In this document: in pieces, positions 24,089 through 27,619 of the stretch
Position numbering within the stretch: position 1 is the first letter of the stretch
How the letters are laid out: each line of letters begins with the position of its first letter
Source: a virus
IMG/VR virus record: IMGVR_UViG_3300035670_000639
Span: 1 to 37,639 of that record
Length of the DNA stretch: 37,639 nt
Strand: one strand, 5' to 3'
Notes under the pieces: generated by a model
What the model was told of the DNA's origin: nothing
What the model saw: the letters and a program-made list of their open reading frames with translations, nothing else
The model's database searches: none
Program-made: the position numbers and the translations under genes

Positions 24089-24700
24089 GTGAAGAACTGT
24101 AATAAGTGTAAAGAAAGCAAGTCAATTGATTCCTTTAGCAAAGACAACAGGGCAAAAGACGGCCTTCAAGGAGTTTGCAAAAGCTGTTACAGAGAATGGC
24201 GCAATGAAAATTCCGAAACCATAAAGGCTTTAGCCAAAGAGTACAGAAAAAAAAATAGAGAGTCTCATAGCGAGTACGGAAAAGCTTGGAGGTTGAAGAA
24301 CAAGGAATACGTTAGGAACTCTGACAAAGAGAGGCGAGCCATAAGAAAGAAGAAAGACCCAATGTTTAGAGCTATATGCAATCTTCGTTCAAGACTTTCT
24401 ATTTTCTGTAGAGCGTCATCTATGGACAAGAGATTTAAAACACTTGATTCTGTTGGGCTCTCACCTGAGGAGTTTAAGTCTTACATTGAGTCTTTGTTCT
24501 CTGACGGTATGAATTGGGACAACTATGGAATTGGAATTGGGAAATGGTCTATTGACCACACGAAACCATTATGTGTTGCCACAACGCTTGATGAGCTGTA
24601 TGCATTGAATCATTATACAAACCTAACGCCTATGTGGAATGAAGAAAACTTTTCAAAGGGCGGTAAGTGGATTGAAAACAATTTAACCAACGAGAAATGA
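24089..24700 (+). CDS. HNH-type homing endonuclease
   Basis: 203 residues, GTG start. N-terminal zinc-ribbon: CNKC then CKSC at about 4-7 and 32-35. The middle is a long basic helix region. The C-terminus has an HNH-like core: KWSIDHTKPLC, then LTPMWNEENFSKG. Such genes move themselves into cleaved sites. The sequence here is richer in A+T than its neighbours. The gene is flanked by AACCAACGAGAAATGAA at 23971-23987 and again at 24685-24701, so it looks inserted between two gene junctions. Confidence 0.75.
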   Translation: MKNCNKCKESKSIDSFSKDNRAKDGLQGVCKSCYREWRNENSETIKALAKEYRKKNRESHSEYGKAWRLKNKEYVRNSDKERRAIRKKKDPMFRAICNLRSRLSIFCRASSMDKRFKTLDSVGLSPEEFKSYIESLFSDGMNWDNYGIGIGKWSIDHTKPLCVATTLDELYALNHYTNLTPMWNEENFSKGGKWIENNLTNEK

Positions 24701-25716: not shown

Positions 25717-26034
25717 ATGGAAAATAAAACAGAGAAAATCTTTTGTGGCTACGTTAAGTCAGCAAAAGTATGGGATGACGCTTCGCGCTCTTTTGTAGAA
25801 CCCAATGGCGGCGTATCTGTACGCTTCAGCCTTTCAGTTGCCGAGATGAATGACCTCCAGCGTTACGCTACCAAGGGAGAGAAGCCGTTCGTTTCGTTTG
25901 ACCTTAAGCGCAGCTCTAAAGGTAACTACTACTTGGAAGTGTCTGACCCCGCCACGTGGGGCTCTAAGCCACAACAGGCAACATCAGCTCCTCAAGGTCG
26001 TGTAGCCCCAAGCAATGACGACTTGCCCTTCTGA
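25717..26034 (+). CDS. ssb: Single-stranded DNA-binding protein
   Basis: 105 residues. A short OB-type beta body (IFCGYVKSAKVWDD, VSVRFSLSV, FVSFDLKRSSKGNYYLEV) is followed by a flexible Gln/Ala/Pro linker and the acidic tail SNDDLPF. That tail is the hallmark by which SSBs recruit partner enzymes. It has its own strong promoter, as expected for an abundant protein. The body is shorter than in bacterial SSB. Confidence 0.8.
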   Translation: MENKTEKIFCGYVKSAKVWDDASRSFVEPNGGVSVRFSLSVAEMNDLQRYATKGEKPFVSFDLKRSSKGNYYLEVSDPATWGSKPQQATSAPQGRVAPSNDDLPF

Positions 26035-26416
26035 GCTACTTGAATCATCACTAGCCTACCTAGTGGGACTAGAATGGGGGATAGACATATTGAAGGTTGA
26101 CTCCCCCTTCTTTTTTGGTTCAACTCCAACGAAGAAGACTGCGTGGTTTGAGGTTGTAAAGGCGCACTCAGATAAGGGCGTTGTCCACTTAGAGAAGCTG
26201 TCCGACAAAGAGTTCACGGTAATCCACTTCCCTAAGAAGCGAGGAGACAACGTAATACTTGTTAGAACAGATAGCCTTCCGTCGACCCAGTTAGATGGAC
26301 AGACTCTTGCAACACTTATTCTGCGCAGGGCGGAGATTCACGTGGAAGAGATAATCAACCAAGGAATCTGGAAGGAGCTCGAGGCTAAGAAAAACAAAGC
26401 CTCAGAGGCGATTTGA
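26015..26416 (+). CDS. Hypothetical protein (133 aa)
   Basis: Starts MTTCPSELLESSLAYLVGLE, overlapping the end of the SSB gene by 20 bases. Mixed alpha/beta, with DKEFTVIHFPKKRGDNVILV and a C-terminal charged helix. No family recognised. It ends just before the tRNA promoter. Confidence 0.6.
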   Translation: MTTCPSELLESSLAYLVGLEWGIDILKVDSPFFFGSTPTKKTAWFEVVKAHSDKGVVHLEKLSDKEFTVIHFPKKRGDNVILVRTDSLPSTQLDGQTLATLILRRAEIHVEEIINQGIWKELEAKKNKASEAI

Positions 26417-26442
26417 TTCTAACAAGAAACTTCTTATATTTG
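26412..26442 (+). promoter_or_regulatory. Promoter of the tRNA
   Basis: TTTG (26412-26415), a 19-base gap, then TATATTTG (26435-26442), 12 bases before the tRNA. Confidence 0.65.
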
Positions 26443-26453
26443 TGGTATTAATA

Positions 26454-26527
26454 GCCCTCGTCGCCTAATGGATATGGCACACGCCTTCTAAGCGTGACAA
26501 ATCCCAGTTCGAGTCTGGGCGGGGGCG
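26454..26527 (+). tRNA. tRNA-Arg (anticodon TCT)
   Basis: The cloverleaf folds by eye: acceptor GCCCTCG with CGGGGGC (one T-G), D stem GCC/GGC, anticodon stem CACGC/GCGTG around loop CTTCTAA (anticodon TCT), T stem CCCAG/CTGGG with loop TTCGAGT. No CCA is encoded. It reads AGA and AGG. It has a promoter of its own and is directly followed by an HNH gene and a second tRNA 3' half. Confidence 0.9.
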
Positions 26528-26541
26528 CAAATCATAAACAT

Positions 26542-27087
26542 ATGAAATATCCAAATCCATCTAGCTACGATAAGCATATAAAAACAAGAGTAGACAAGAC
26601 TCTTGGTTATGTATACTTTCTAGATTCAGAGCATCCATTATCAAGCCGAGGAGGTAAGGTTTATTACCATAGACACGTAATGTCTGTCAAGATGGGGAAG
26701 TGGATTGATAAAAGCTATCAGGTGCACCACATAGATGAAAATAGATGTAATAATGACCCAAGCAATCTAGAGGCACTTTCTCCAACTATGCACGGAAGGA
26801 AACATAGTAATTCAATTAAATCAGTAAAGAGATGTAAAAACTGCACAAAAAAGTTTATAACTGTGGATTATAATTTTTGCAGCGTATCCTGCGCTTCGGC
26901 ATTTAGGCAGGTTGGAGGAGTTCACAACAAAATAACCCCTGAAGAATTAAGCATTCTTGTTTGGGAAATTCCAGCAACTAAAATTGCCAAAAAGATAGGA
27001 TGCTCTGACGTTATGGTTTCAAAACTTTGCAAGAGGTGGGGCATATCAAAACCTGGCAGAGGATACTGGATGAAAAATAAAAATTAA
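26542..27087 (+). CDS. HNH homing endonuclease next to tRNA
   Basis: 181 residues from ATG 26542. The HNH_3-like core is KVYYHRHVMSVKMGKW, YQVHHIDENRCNNDPSNLE and LSPTMHGRKH. A Cys cluster follows (CKNC and CSVSC), then a C-terminal helix-turn-helix (PATKIAKKIGCSDVMVSKLC). This is the usual plan of phage HNH homing endonucleases with a DNA-recognition tail. The gene is A+T-rich compared with its neighbours. It lies between an intact tRNA-Arg and an extra tRNA 3' half, so it probably entered by recombination at the tRNA. Confidence 0.85.
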   Translation: MKYPNPSSYDKHIKTRVDKTLGYVYFLDSEHPLSSRGGKVYYHRHVMSVKMGKWIDKSYQVHHIDENRCNNDPSNLEALSPTMHGRKHSNSIKSVKRCKNCTKKFITVDYNFCSVSCASAFRQVGGVHNKITPEELSILVWEIPATKIAKKIGCSDVMVSKLCKRWGISKPGRGYWMKNKN

Positions 27088-27093
27088 AAAACT

Positions 27094-27118
27094 GCGCGTT
27101 CGAGCCGCGCCGAGGGTA
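27094..27118 (+). pseudogene. tRNA 3'-half remnant (T arm and acceptor strand)
   Basis: GCGCG-TTCGAGC-CGCGC forms a perfect T arm, followed by CGAGGGT and a discriminator A. No D or anticodon arm precedes it. CGAGGGT pairs with the 5' acceptor strand GCCCTCG of the tRNA at 26454 (six Watson-Crick pairs and one G-T), so this may be the original 3' end of that tRNA, displaced by the HNH element. Confidence 0.65.
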
Positions 27119-27136
27119 CTAAATAAATTATTTAAA

Positions 27137-27619
27137 ATGAAAGACATAGGATACTCAGAAAGAGATGTCAATGGTTTTGTAGATGTTGCTTGCGAATATT
27201 TTAAGATGAACTTGCTTAGCAAAACCAGACTGCAAAGCGTTGTATCTGTTCGTCAAGCATTGTTCTACGCACTACGCACGAGAGGCATTCCGTACTCTGT
27301 AATCGCTAGAGCATTCGATAAGAATCACGCTAGCGTAATACACGGACACAAAAAGGTATTCGACTATTTAAACATTAAAGACAAGGCTACAATTGTTCTC
27401 CAAAAGCAAGTAGAAGACTTTGCAAAGGAGTACTTTAATGAGGTGAGTAACGCTGTTAAGTTCTCACCAGAGATGCGCCTAAACATCTACCGAAACAGAT
27501 TCATTGACTTTATGAATGAGGCCGAGTTCCTTTTGCCTTACGACACAAAAGAAGAGCGATTGATTGCATCACAGACAATTATTAAAGAAGTATTTAGCTA
27601 TGCAGAAGAGACTGAATGA
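27137..27619 (+). CDS. Protein with a DnaA domain IV-like helix-turn-helix
   Basis: 160 residues. Residues about 25-75 match the DNA-binding domain of DnaA: SVRQALFYALRTRGIPYSVI, then ARAFDKNHASVIHGHKKV, where the last part is the DnaA signature loop. There is no AAA+ ATPase part. The C-terminal half is an unknown helical region. An origin-binding or helicase-loading role is plausible because a primase-helicase follows two genes later, and because repeats lie in the 11.5-12.5 kb region. Inference only. Confidence 0.72.
   Translation: MKDIGYSERDVNGFVDVACEYFKMNLLSKTRLQSVVSVRQALFYALRTRGIPYSVIARAFDKNHASVIHGHKKVFDYLNIKDKATIVLQKQVEDFAKEYFNEVSNAVKFSPEMRLNIYRNRFIDFMNEAEFLLPYDTKEERLIASQTIIKEVFSYAEETE

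Follow-up and report, generated by a model that had tools for sequence, protein, structure and literature searches.

An HNH endonuclease gene in a phage tRNA-Arg gene, probably a homing element that carries a replacement tRNA

Why does an HNH endonuclease gene lie between a complete tRNA-Arg gene and the 3' end of a second tRNA? This arrangement is found in a viral DNA of 37,639 nucleotides (IMG/VR record IMGVR_UViG_3300035670_000639), the whole of which is called the window hereafter. A preliminary description had reported an intact tRNA-Arg, an HNH gene and then a second T arm with its acceptor strand, and ARAGORN, Rfam, Pfam and the sequence itself bear this out. ARAGORN found one tRNA in the window, a tRNA-Arg(TCT) at 26454-26527/8, which matched the Rfam tRNA model with 54.5 bits and adopted a cloverleaf on folding (z = -2.3). 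The downstream piece reads GCGCG-TTCGAGC-CGCGC-CGAGGGT-A at 27094-27118, which corresponds to a T arm followed by the 3' acceptor strand and discriminator of a tRNA. The features of the locus are listed below; L002 and L010-L013 are relatives that lack the HNH gene.

26015-26416, plus strand: upstream gene, with a new C-terminus in the window (ORF list compared with the L002 and L010-L013 sequences)
26375-26401, plus strand: left edge of the resident site, ending in GCC, nucleotides 1-3 of the resident tRNA-Arg (27 nt identical to L002 5269-5295)
26412-26442, plus strand: promoter-like site of the Bacteroidota type, TTTG-N19-TATATTTG (motif match, inside the replaced stretch)
26454-26527, plus strand: carried, foreign intact tRNA-Arg, anticodon TCT (ARAGORN, Rfam, cloverleaf fold, identity to the L002 resident)
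26542-27087, plus strand: intact HNH endonuclease gene of 181 aa, ATG at 26542, stop at 27087 (Pfam HNH_3, E=3e-11; phrog_15471, 1e-27)
26833-27066, plus strand: C-terminal zinc ribbon and helix-turn-helix, proposed targeting module (alignments; predicted helices 115-165; tRNA association test)
27093-27118, plus strand: resident tRNA-Arg remnant, comprising the last variable-loop nucleotide, T arm, 3' acceptor strand and discriminator (L002 identity)
27137-27619, plus strand: downstream flanking gene with a DnaA-C-like helix-turn-helix, syntenic in relatives (Pfam Bac_DnaA_C, 4e-9; tblastn synteny)

The left edge was defined by the longest exact match to L002, and the blastn alignment ends at window position 26401. 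The small product of the downstream gene, with its DnaA-type C-terminal DNA-binding domain, diverges fast (37-64% identity among relatives), and a primase-helicase gene adjoins it.

Comparison with the HNH-free relatives shows what the locus looks like when the nuclease is missing. L002 is the same locus, with a primase-helicase 95% identical to that of the window and flanking DNA 85% and 75% identical on either side of the insert. The DNA alignments break at window 26401 and resume at 27093. At this place L002 has a single complete tRNA-Arg(TCT), and window 27093-27123 is an exact match of 31 nt, flank included, to the 3' end of that gene (TGCGCGTTCGAGCCGCGCCGAGGGTACTAAA), meaning that the downstream piece did not arise by chance. 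The prediction of the preliminary description that HNH-free relatives would have a tRNA whose 3' end is the downstream T arm with CGAGGGTA was verified in L002. In L010-L013, too, a lone tRNA-Arg(TCT) occupies this place and overlaps the tail of the upstream gene; each of the five HNH-free relatives that have a tRNA at the locus carries exactly one, and the two complete tRNAs named in advance as the contrary outcome were not seen. In L002 and L010-L013 the TAG stop of the upstream gene falls within the resident tRNA, and in the window this C-terminus has been replaced (26402-26416). Given the single-tRNA state of these relatives and the 31-nt identity with L002, we conclude that the piece at 27093-27118 is the final third of the phage's original tRNA-Arg(UCU), and by the same comparison window 26402-27092 has replaced nucleotides 4 to ~44 of this resident gene. 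When we looked for an eroded resident 5' half in window 26394-26453, the local alignment did not score above shuffled sequences (p=0.45). The phage collection yielded no DNA relatives of the window, whether close or distant.

Occupied (window and L001) and empty (L002 and L010-L013) alleles of one site thus exist, in keeping with the earlier suggestion that the HNH gene at this tRNA is mobile. The gene has its own start and stop codons and is not fused to another protein (ORF list), no Rfam intron model matched this stretch of the window, and the insert holds no integrase gene, the HNH gene being the gene there. Residues H62, H63, D65, N70, N71, N75, H84 and H88 are invariant in the family alignment, and the AlphaFold model has a pLDDT of 88. 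With intact HNH residues, occupied and empty alleles and neither intron nor intein, the protein has the marks of a free-standing homing endonuclease. The GC content of the HNH gene (36.8% vs 45.8% for the window) is as expected if the gene is a newcomer. Pfam matched HNH_3 and no GIY-YIG domain; weak PLATZ/RWP-RK and HIV_GSL3 matches, which fell below the cut-off, were disregarded. Elsewhere in the window, positions 24089-24697 encode a possible second nuclease of 203 aa with an HNH-like IDHTKP...N motif and CxxC pairs; tblastn found no match to it in L002 or the other relatives, and it is possibly a second homing gene of this phage.

We then considered the origin of the intact tRNA-Arg. In one alignment of the carried tRNA with the residents of L002, L010, L012, L018, L019, L028, L041 and L017, it was 43-54% identical to the resident-type tRNA-Arg(TCT) genes (54% to L002), which are 64-96% identical to one another; with free gapping the value for L002 was 66%. 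The carried gene does not match the resident in 5' half, D arm or leader, and the leader with the promoter motif at 26412-26442 is absent from L002. Motifs of this type, which follow the consensus of Bacteroidota promoters, occur five times in the whole 37.6-kb window, this one included, and since it lies inside the replaced stretch it probably came in with the cassette. By these comparisons the intact upstream tRNA-Arg is foreign as a whole, and it came in together with the HNH gene and a promoter-like site of its own. The two 3' ends are unlike in sequence and derive from separate tRNA-Arg genes, so the 3' half is not duplicated as first described; nor was a new 3' end supplied in the manner of an integrase, the upstream tRNA being foreign throughout and the resident missing from nucleotide 4 to ~44. 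The observation that CGAGGGT pairs with GCCCTCG as well as the present CGGGGGC does was correct (six Watson-Crick pairs and one G-U each). GTTCGAG does occur at both edges, but as a universal T-loop motif it has no weight alone. The GCCCTCG 5' acceptor strand is common to the carried and resident genes, which could hint at partial conversion. No donor with a closely similar tRNA-Arg and HNH gene was found in viral_contigs or genome_contigs. As AGA makes up 19% of Arg codons in the 28 long ORFs of the window, a tRNA-Arg(UCU) is plausibly useful to this phage.

An independent replicate was found in phiKZ and its kin. Both phiKZ and PA1C have an intact tRNA-Asn(GTT) of class-II-like form, followed by an HNH gene, between the halves of a second tRNA-Asn. 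In phiKZ the 5' half of the broken gene (TCCGTGATAGCTCAGTCGGTAGAGCAAATGACTGTTA) is directly upstream of the intact tRNA-Asn and the 3' half (AATCACTGGGTCCCTGG...TCACGGAGCCA) directly downstream of the HNH region, the split falling between GACTGTTA and AATCACT, in the anticodon loop of the resident. phiKZ therefore keeps both resident halves, whereas the window keeps the 3' end only. phiLC and fnug, identical to each other here, have the resident tRNA-Asn whole and no HNH gene; in phage 30-1 it is also whole, with small changes. A distant-mode search gave ~12 occupied and more than 12 empty relatives. No intron model matched the phiKZ or PA1C insert. In phiKZ, too, the whole class-II-like tRNA-Asn is foreign. 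In phage T2P and its kin the same carried tRNA-Asn lies inside a tRNA-Asn copy elsewhere, beside a tRNA-Asp and without the HNH gene, a placement which suggests that the tRNA gene itself is the target. In Pseudomonas phage T2P (L102:1200-1364, set against L104, fnug) both the HNH gene and the 3' half are gone, so that this is apparently a cassette that shed its nuclease and retained the spare tRNA.

Further broken tRNAs were found beside related nucleases. In L240 an intact tRNA-Thr(TGT) and an HNH gene lie between GCCGGTTTAGCTCAGTTGGTAGAG... and ...AACCGGCACCA; because 70 of the 75 typed phage tRNAs starting with the 5' sequence of the broken gene are Thr(TGT), the latter is most likely also a tRNA-Thr. 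L109 has the same shape as the window, with an intact tRNA-Met(CAT), an HNH gene and then a remnant beginning at a CAT anticodon arm. A tRNA with a CAT anticodon can be Met, fMet or Ile; with 28 tRNA matches in the L109 contig, a Met/Met pair by chance is not negligible, and a search for an empty-site relative returned L109's own contig only. Both the Thr/Thr and the Met/Met cases are probable. Carried and broken anticodons thus agree in all four cases in which both can be identified (Arg in the window, Asn in phiKZ, Thr by inference in L240, Met in L109). In two further cases only a nuclease gene interrupts the tRNA and no carried tRNA accompanies it: a Thr-like tRNA in L007 and a tRNA-Gln(TTG) in L253. 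In the latter (L253:1856-2700, no intron match) a PD-(D/E)XK nuclease with the same C-terminal helix-turn-helix splits the gene exactly beside the anticodon. An apparent split tRNA-Arg in L117 was set aside as too degenerate. Group I introns (RF00028) were also seen near nucleases of the same family (L217:786-977, L252:1814-2044, L222:2961-3162, L007:3405-3653), and those of L217 and L252, which interrupt tRNA-Asn anticodon loops, may represent collaborative homing.

What these nucleases share is their C-terminal part. The window protein, assigned to phrog_15471, has an N-terminal HNH domain followed by a CxxC...CxxxC ribbon and a helix-turn-helix ending in KPPRGYW. The ribbon and helix-turn-helix are also joined to other HNH types in phages Munch and Muenster and, in L253, to the PD-(D/E)XK nuclease (Pfam PDDEXK_5, 1e-16). 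We compared 124 non-redundant nuclease loci for the presence of an ARAGORN tRNA within 150 nt: 48 of the 76 loci with the C-terminal domain had one, compared with 5 of the 48 without it (odds ratio 15, p=3e-9). The real rate exceeds 48/76, because ARAGORN overlooks odd tRNAs at several other loci (L088, L107). We infer that the zinc ribbon and helix-turn-helix target the nuclease to tRNA genes. The tRNA-linked family spans unrelated phages, and many of its members merely lie between intact tRNAs, in tRNA arrays, with no visible remnant. In L106, L110, L112 and L120 the stop codon of the nuclease overlaps the 5' end of the following intact tRNA.

Unusual structures are more frequent in tRNAs adjoining the nuclease. 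Eight of the 34 directly upstream of family genes were over-long for their isotype, compared with 12 of 187 (p=0.005), and at no fewer than nine loci the nuclease adjoins a tRNA-Arg(TCT) whose D arm is re-arranged, both comparisons having been defined post hoc on data already seen. These shapes fit a carried copy altered to evade cutting. tRNA-Arg(TCT)-like genes that have no normal D arm occur beside the nuclease gene in L088, L090, L091, L107, L110, L113, L191, L222 and L230. In these genes the 3 nt following T8-A9 pair with 3 nt located 3' of the anticodon arm, and the pairing covaries (CTC/GAG, CGC/GCG, CGT/GCG, TGC/GCA, CGG/CCG); a TAAyTGGAnnAT-like linker and then the T arm follow. Such genes are overlooked by ARAGORN and score low with Rfam. 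Since a 2024 paper holds every known bacterial tRNA to be a canonical cloverleaf (PMC11551756), this looks like an undescribed tRNA shape.

The reading that we favour, and hold to be likely, is that a free-standing homing endonuclease breaks a tRNA gene and, in place of self-splicing, brings along a copy of that tRNA with the same anticodon, divergent in sequence and presumably resistant to cutting. The cassette would consist of a promoter, a complete tRNA-Arg(UCU) and the HNH gene, and would have invaded the phage's resident tRNA-Arg(UCU) gene. The nuclease would cut the resident gene of a co-infecting phage, with the anticodon loop or its immediate vicinity as the most likely site, and repair of the break would copy the cassette into it. 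This cut site is proposed from phiKZ and L253, since the window has lost the resident 5' half and the search there gave no trace of an eroded copy. As the cassette, unlike an intron or intein, could not splice out, the resident tRNA would be destroyed; the carried one would make up for the loss with the same anticodon and a sequence too different for the nuclease to cut. The resident halves would then decay, and the window now retains only the T arm with the 3' acceptor strand. The earlier idea that the element keeps the tRNA working would then stand as to function, but the means would be a whole spare tRNA and not a new 3' end. On the more general proposal, that a widespread family of phage endonucleases, directed to tRNA genes by the common zinc ribbon and helix-turn-helix, destroys the resident at its anticodon loop and comes with a structurally altered tRNA of the same anticodon that it cannot cut, as a natural home-and-rescue system, our judgement is evenly balanced; if it is true, the nuclease would be hard to lose and would drive the turnover and odd shapes of phage tRNAs.

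Two alternatives concern how the two tRNAs came together. An ancestral pair of tRNA-Arg genes, with an ordinary HNH gene landing in or beside the second and deleting its 5' half, would involve no rescue and would suit the many family members that sit between intact neighbours in tRNA arrays. We nevertheless find this quite improbable: the one tRNA present in each of the five HNH-free relatives is the broken one, and in phiKZ the split tRNA encloses the intact one instead of adjoining it. Unlikely, to a lesser degree, is that the foreign tRNA-Arg spread by helping the phage, either in decoding or in resisting host defences that cut tRNAs, and that the HNH gene takes an adjoining tRNA along by co-conversion, like SegB in T4/T6, with breakage of the resident as a side effect. 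SegB does spread and amplify tRNA genes, phage tRNAs can counter tRNA-cutting defences (PMC2988022, PMC13096335, PMC11555353), and T2P-type phages retain the cassette tRNA-Asn without the HNH gene; yet selection for the tRNA alone explains neither why the broken and carried tRNAs have the same anticodon nor why the carried one is placed inside the split one.

The other two alternatives concern the nature of the insert. That an HNH element entered the tRNA and supplied a new 3' half, as integrases do, was suggested by the ability of both 3' strands to pair with the one GCCCTCG strand. L002 refutes it for the window: the intact tRNA has neither the 5' half nor the leader of the resident, and identity is low throughout. 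The class-II-like tRNA of phiKZ is wholly foreign, and we give this idea hardly any credence. Equally far-fetched is a degenerate group I intron with an HNH reading frame: such introns do occur in tRNA-Asn anticodon loops near nucleases of this family (L217, L252), but the window and phiKZ/PA1C inserts match no intron model, the non-coding sequence left is too short, and the insert contains a complete tRNA. Breakage of the resident gene by a nuclease that brings its own spare remains our preferred explanation. It would help to account for phage tRNA genes that duplicate a function, for the turnover of tRNA arrays and for unusual phage tRNA bodies, and since phiKZ and its empty-site relatives can be cultured, the idea is directly testable.

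tRNA-linked homing endonucleases are already known in phages, and the split-plus-spare arrangement appears to be new: among open-licence papers we found no description of a nuclease cassette in which a split tRNA is accompanied by a spare with the same anticodon. HNH genes are known in tRNA clusters (PMC6409571), and SegB of T4/T6 cuts in the tRNA region, leading to preferential inheritance or amplification (PMC2988022, PMC13096335). Like SegB, the window HNH is a free-standing endonuclease tied to phage tRNA genes; unlike SegB, a GIY-YIG enzyme in a tRNA cluster, it is an HNH protein whose target is a single tRNA gene, apparently at the anticodon loop, and a split resident with a carried same-anticodon tRNA is not described for SegB in the accessible parts of those two papers. 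phiKZ gp296 and its relatives (phrog_15471) belong to the same family and show the same order of intact tRNA, HNH gene and broken tRNA of the same anticodon; gp296 is annotated as an HNH endonuclease only, and we found no account of the split or the carried tRNA-Asn of phiKZ among open-licence papers. The closest PDB fold is I-HmuI of SPO1, a weak match (Foldseek probability 0.72, E 0.04); I-HmuI is encoded in an intron, whereas the window HNH lies outside any intron and has a different C-terminal module. The element resembles the integrases that restore a tRNA 3' end in compensating for the tRNA it invades, and differs in having no integrase, a whole tRNA instead of a 3' end and no duplicated identity block. 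Homing endonucleases spare the genes they invade by splicing out, as introns and inteins, or by intergenic placement; breaking the gene and supplying a spare seems to be a third solution, one otherwise engineered by geneticists. In engineered home-and-rescue (HomeR) and cleave-and-rescue designs, a gene-destroying nuclease is combined with a recoded working copy (PMC7968924). The likeness lies in a nuclease that destroys a gene and an altered spare copy of it, the difference in that HomeR devices are synthetic CRISPR constructs in insects, whereas the present cassette would have arisen naturally in phages and would use a protein endonuclease.
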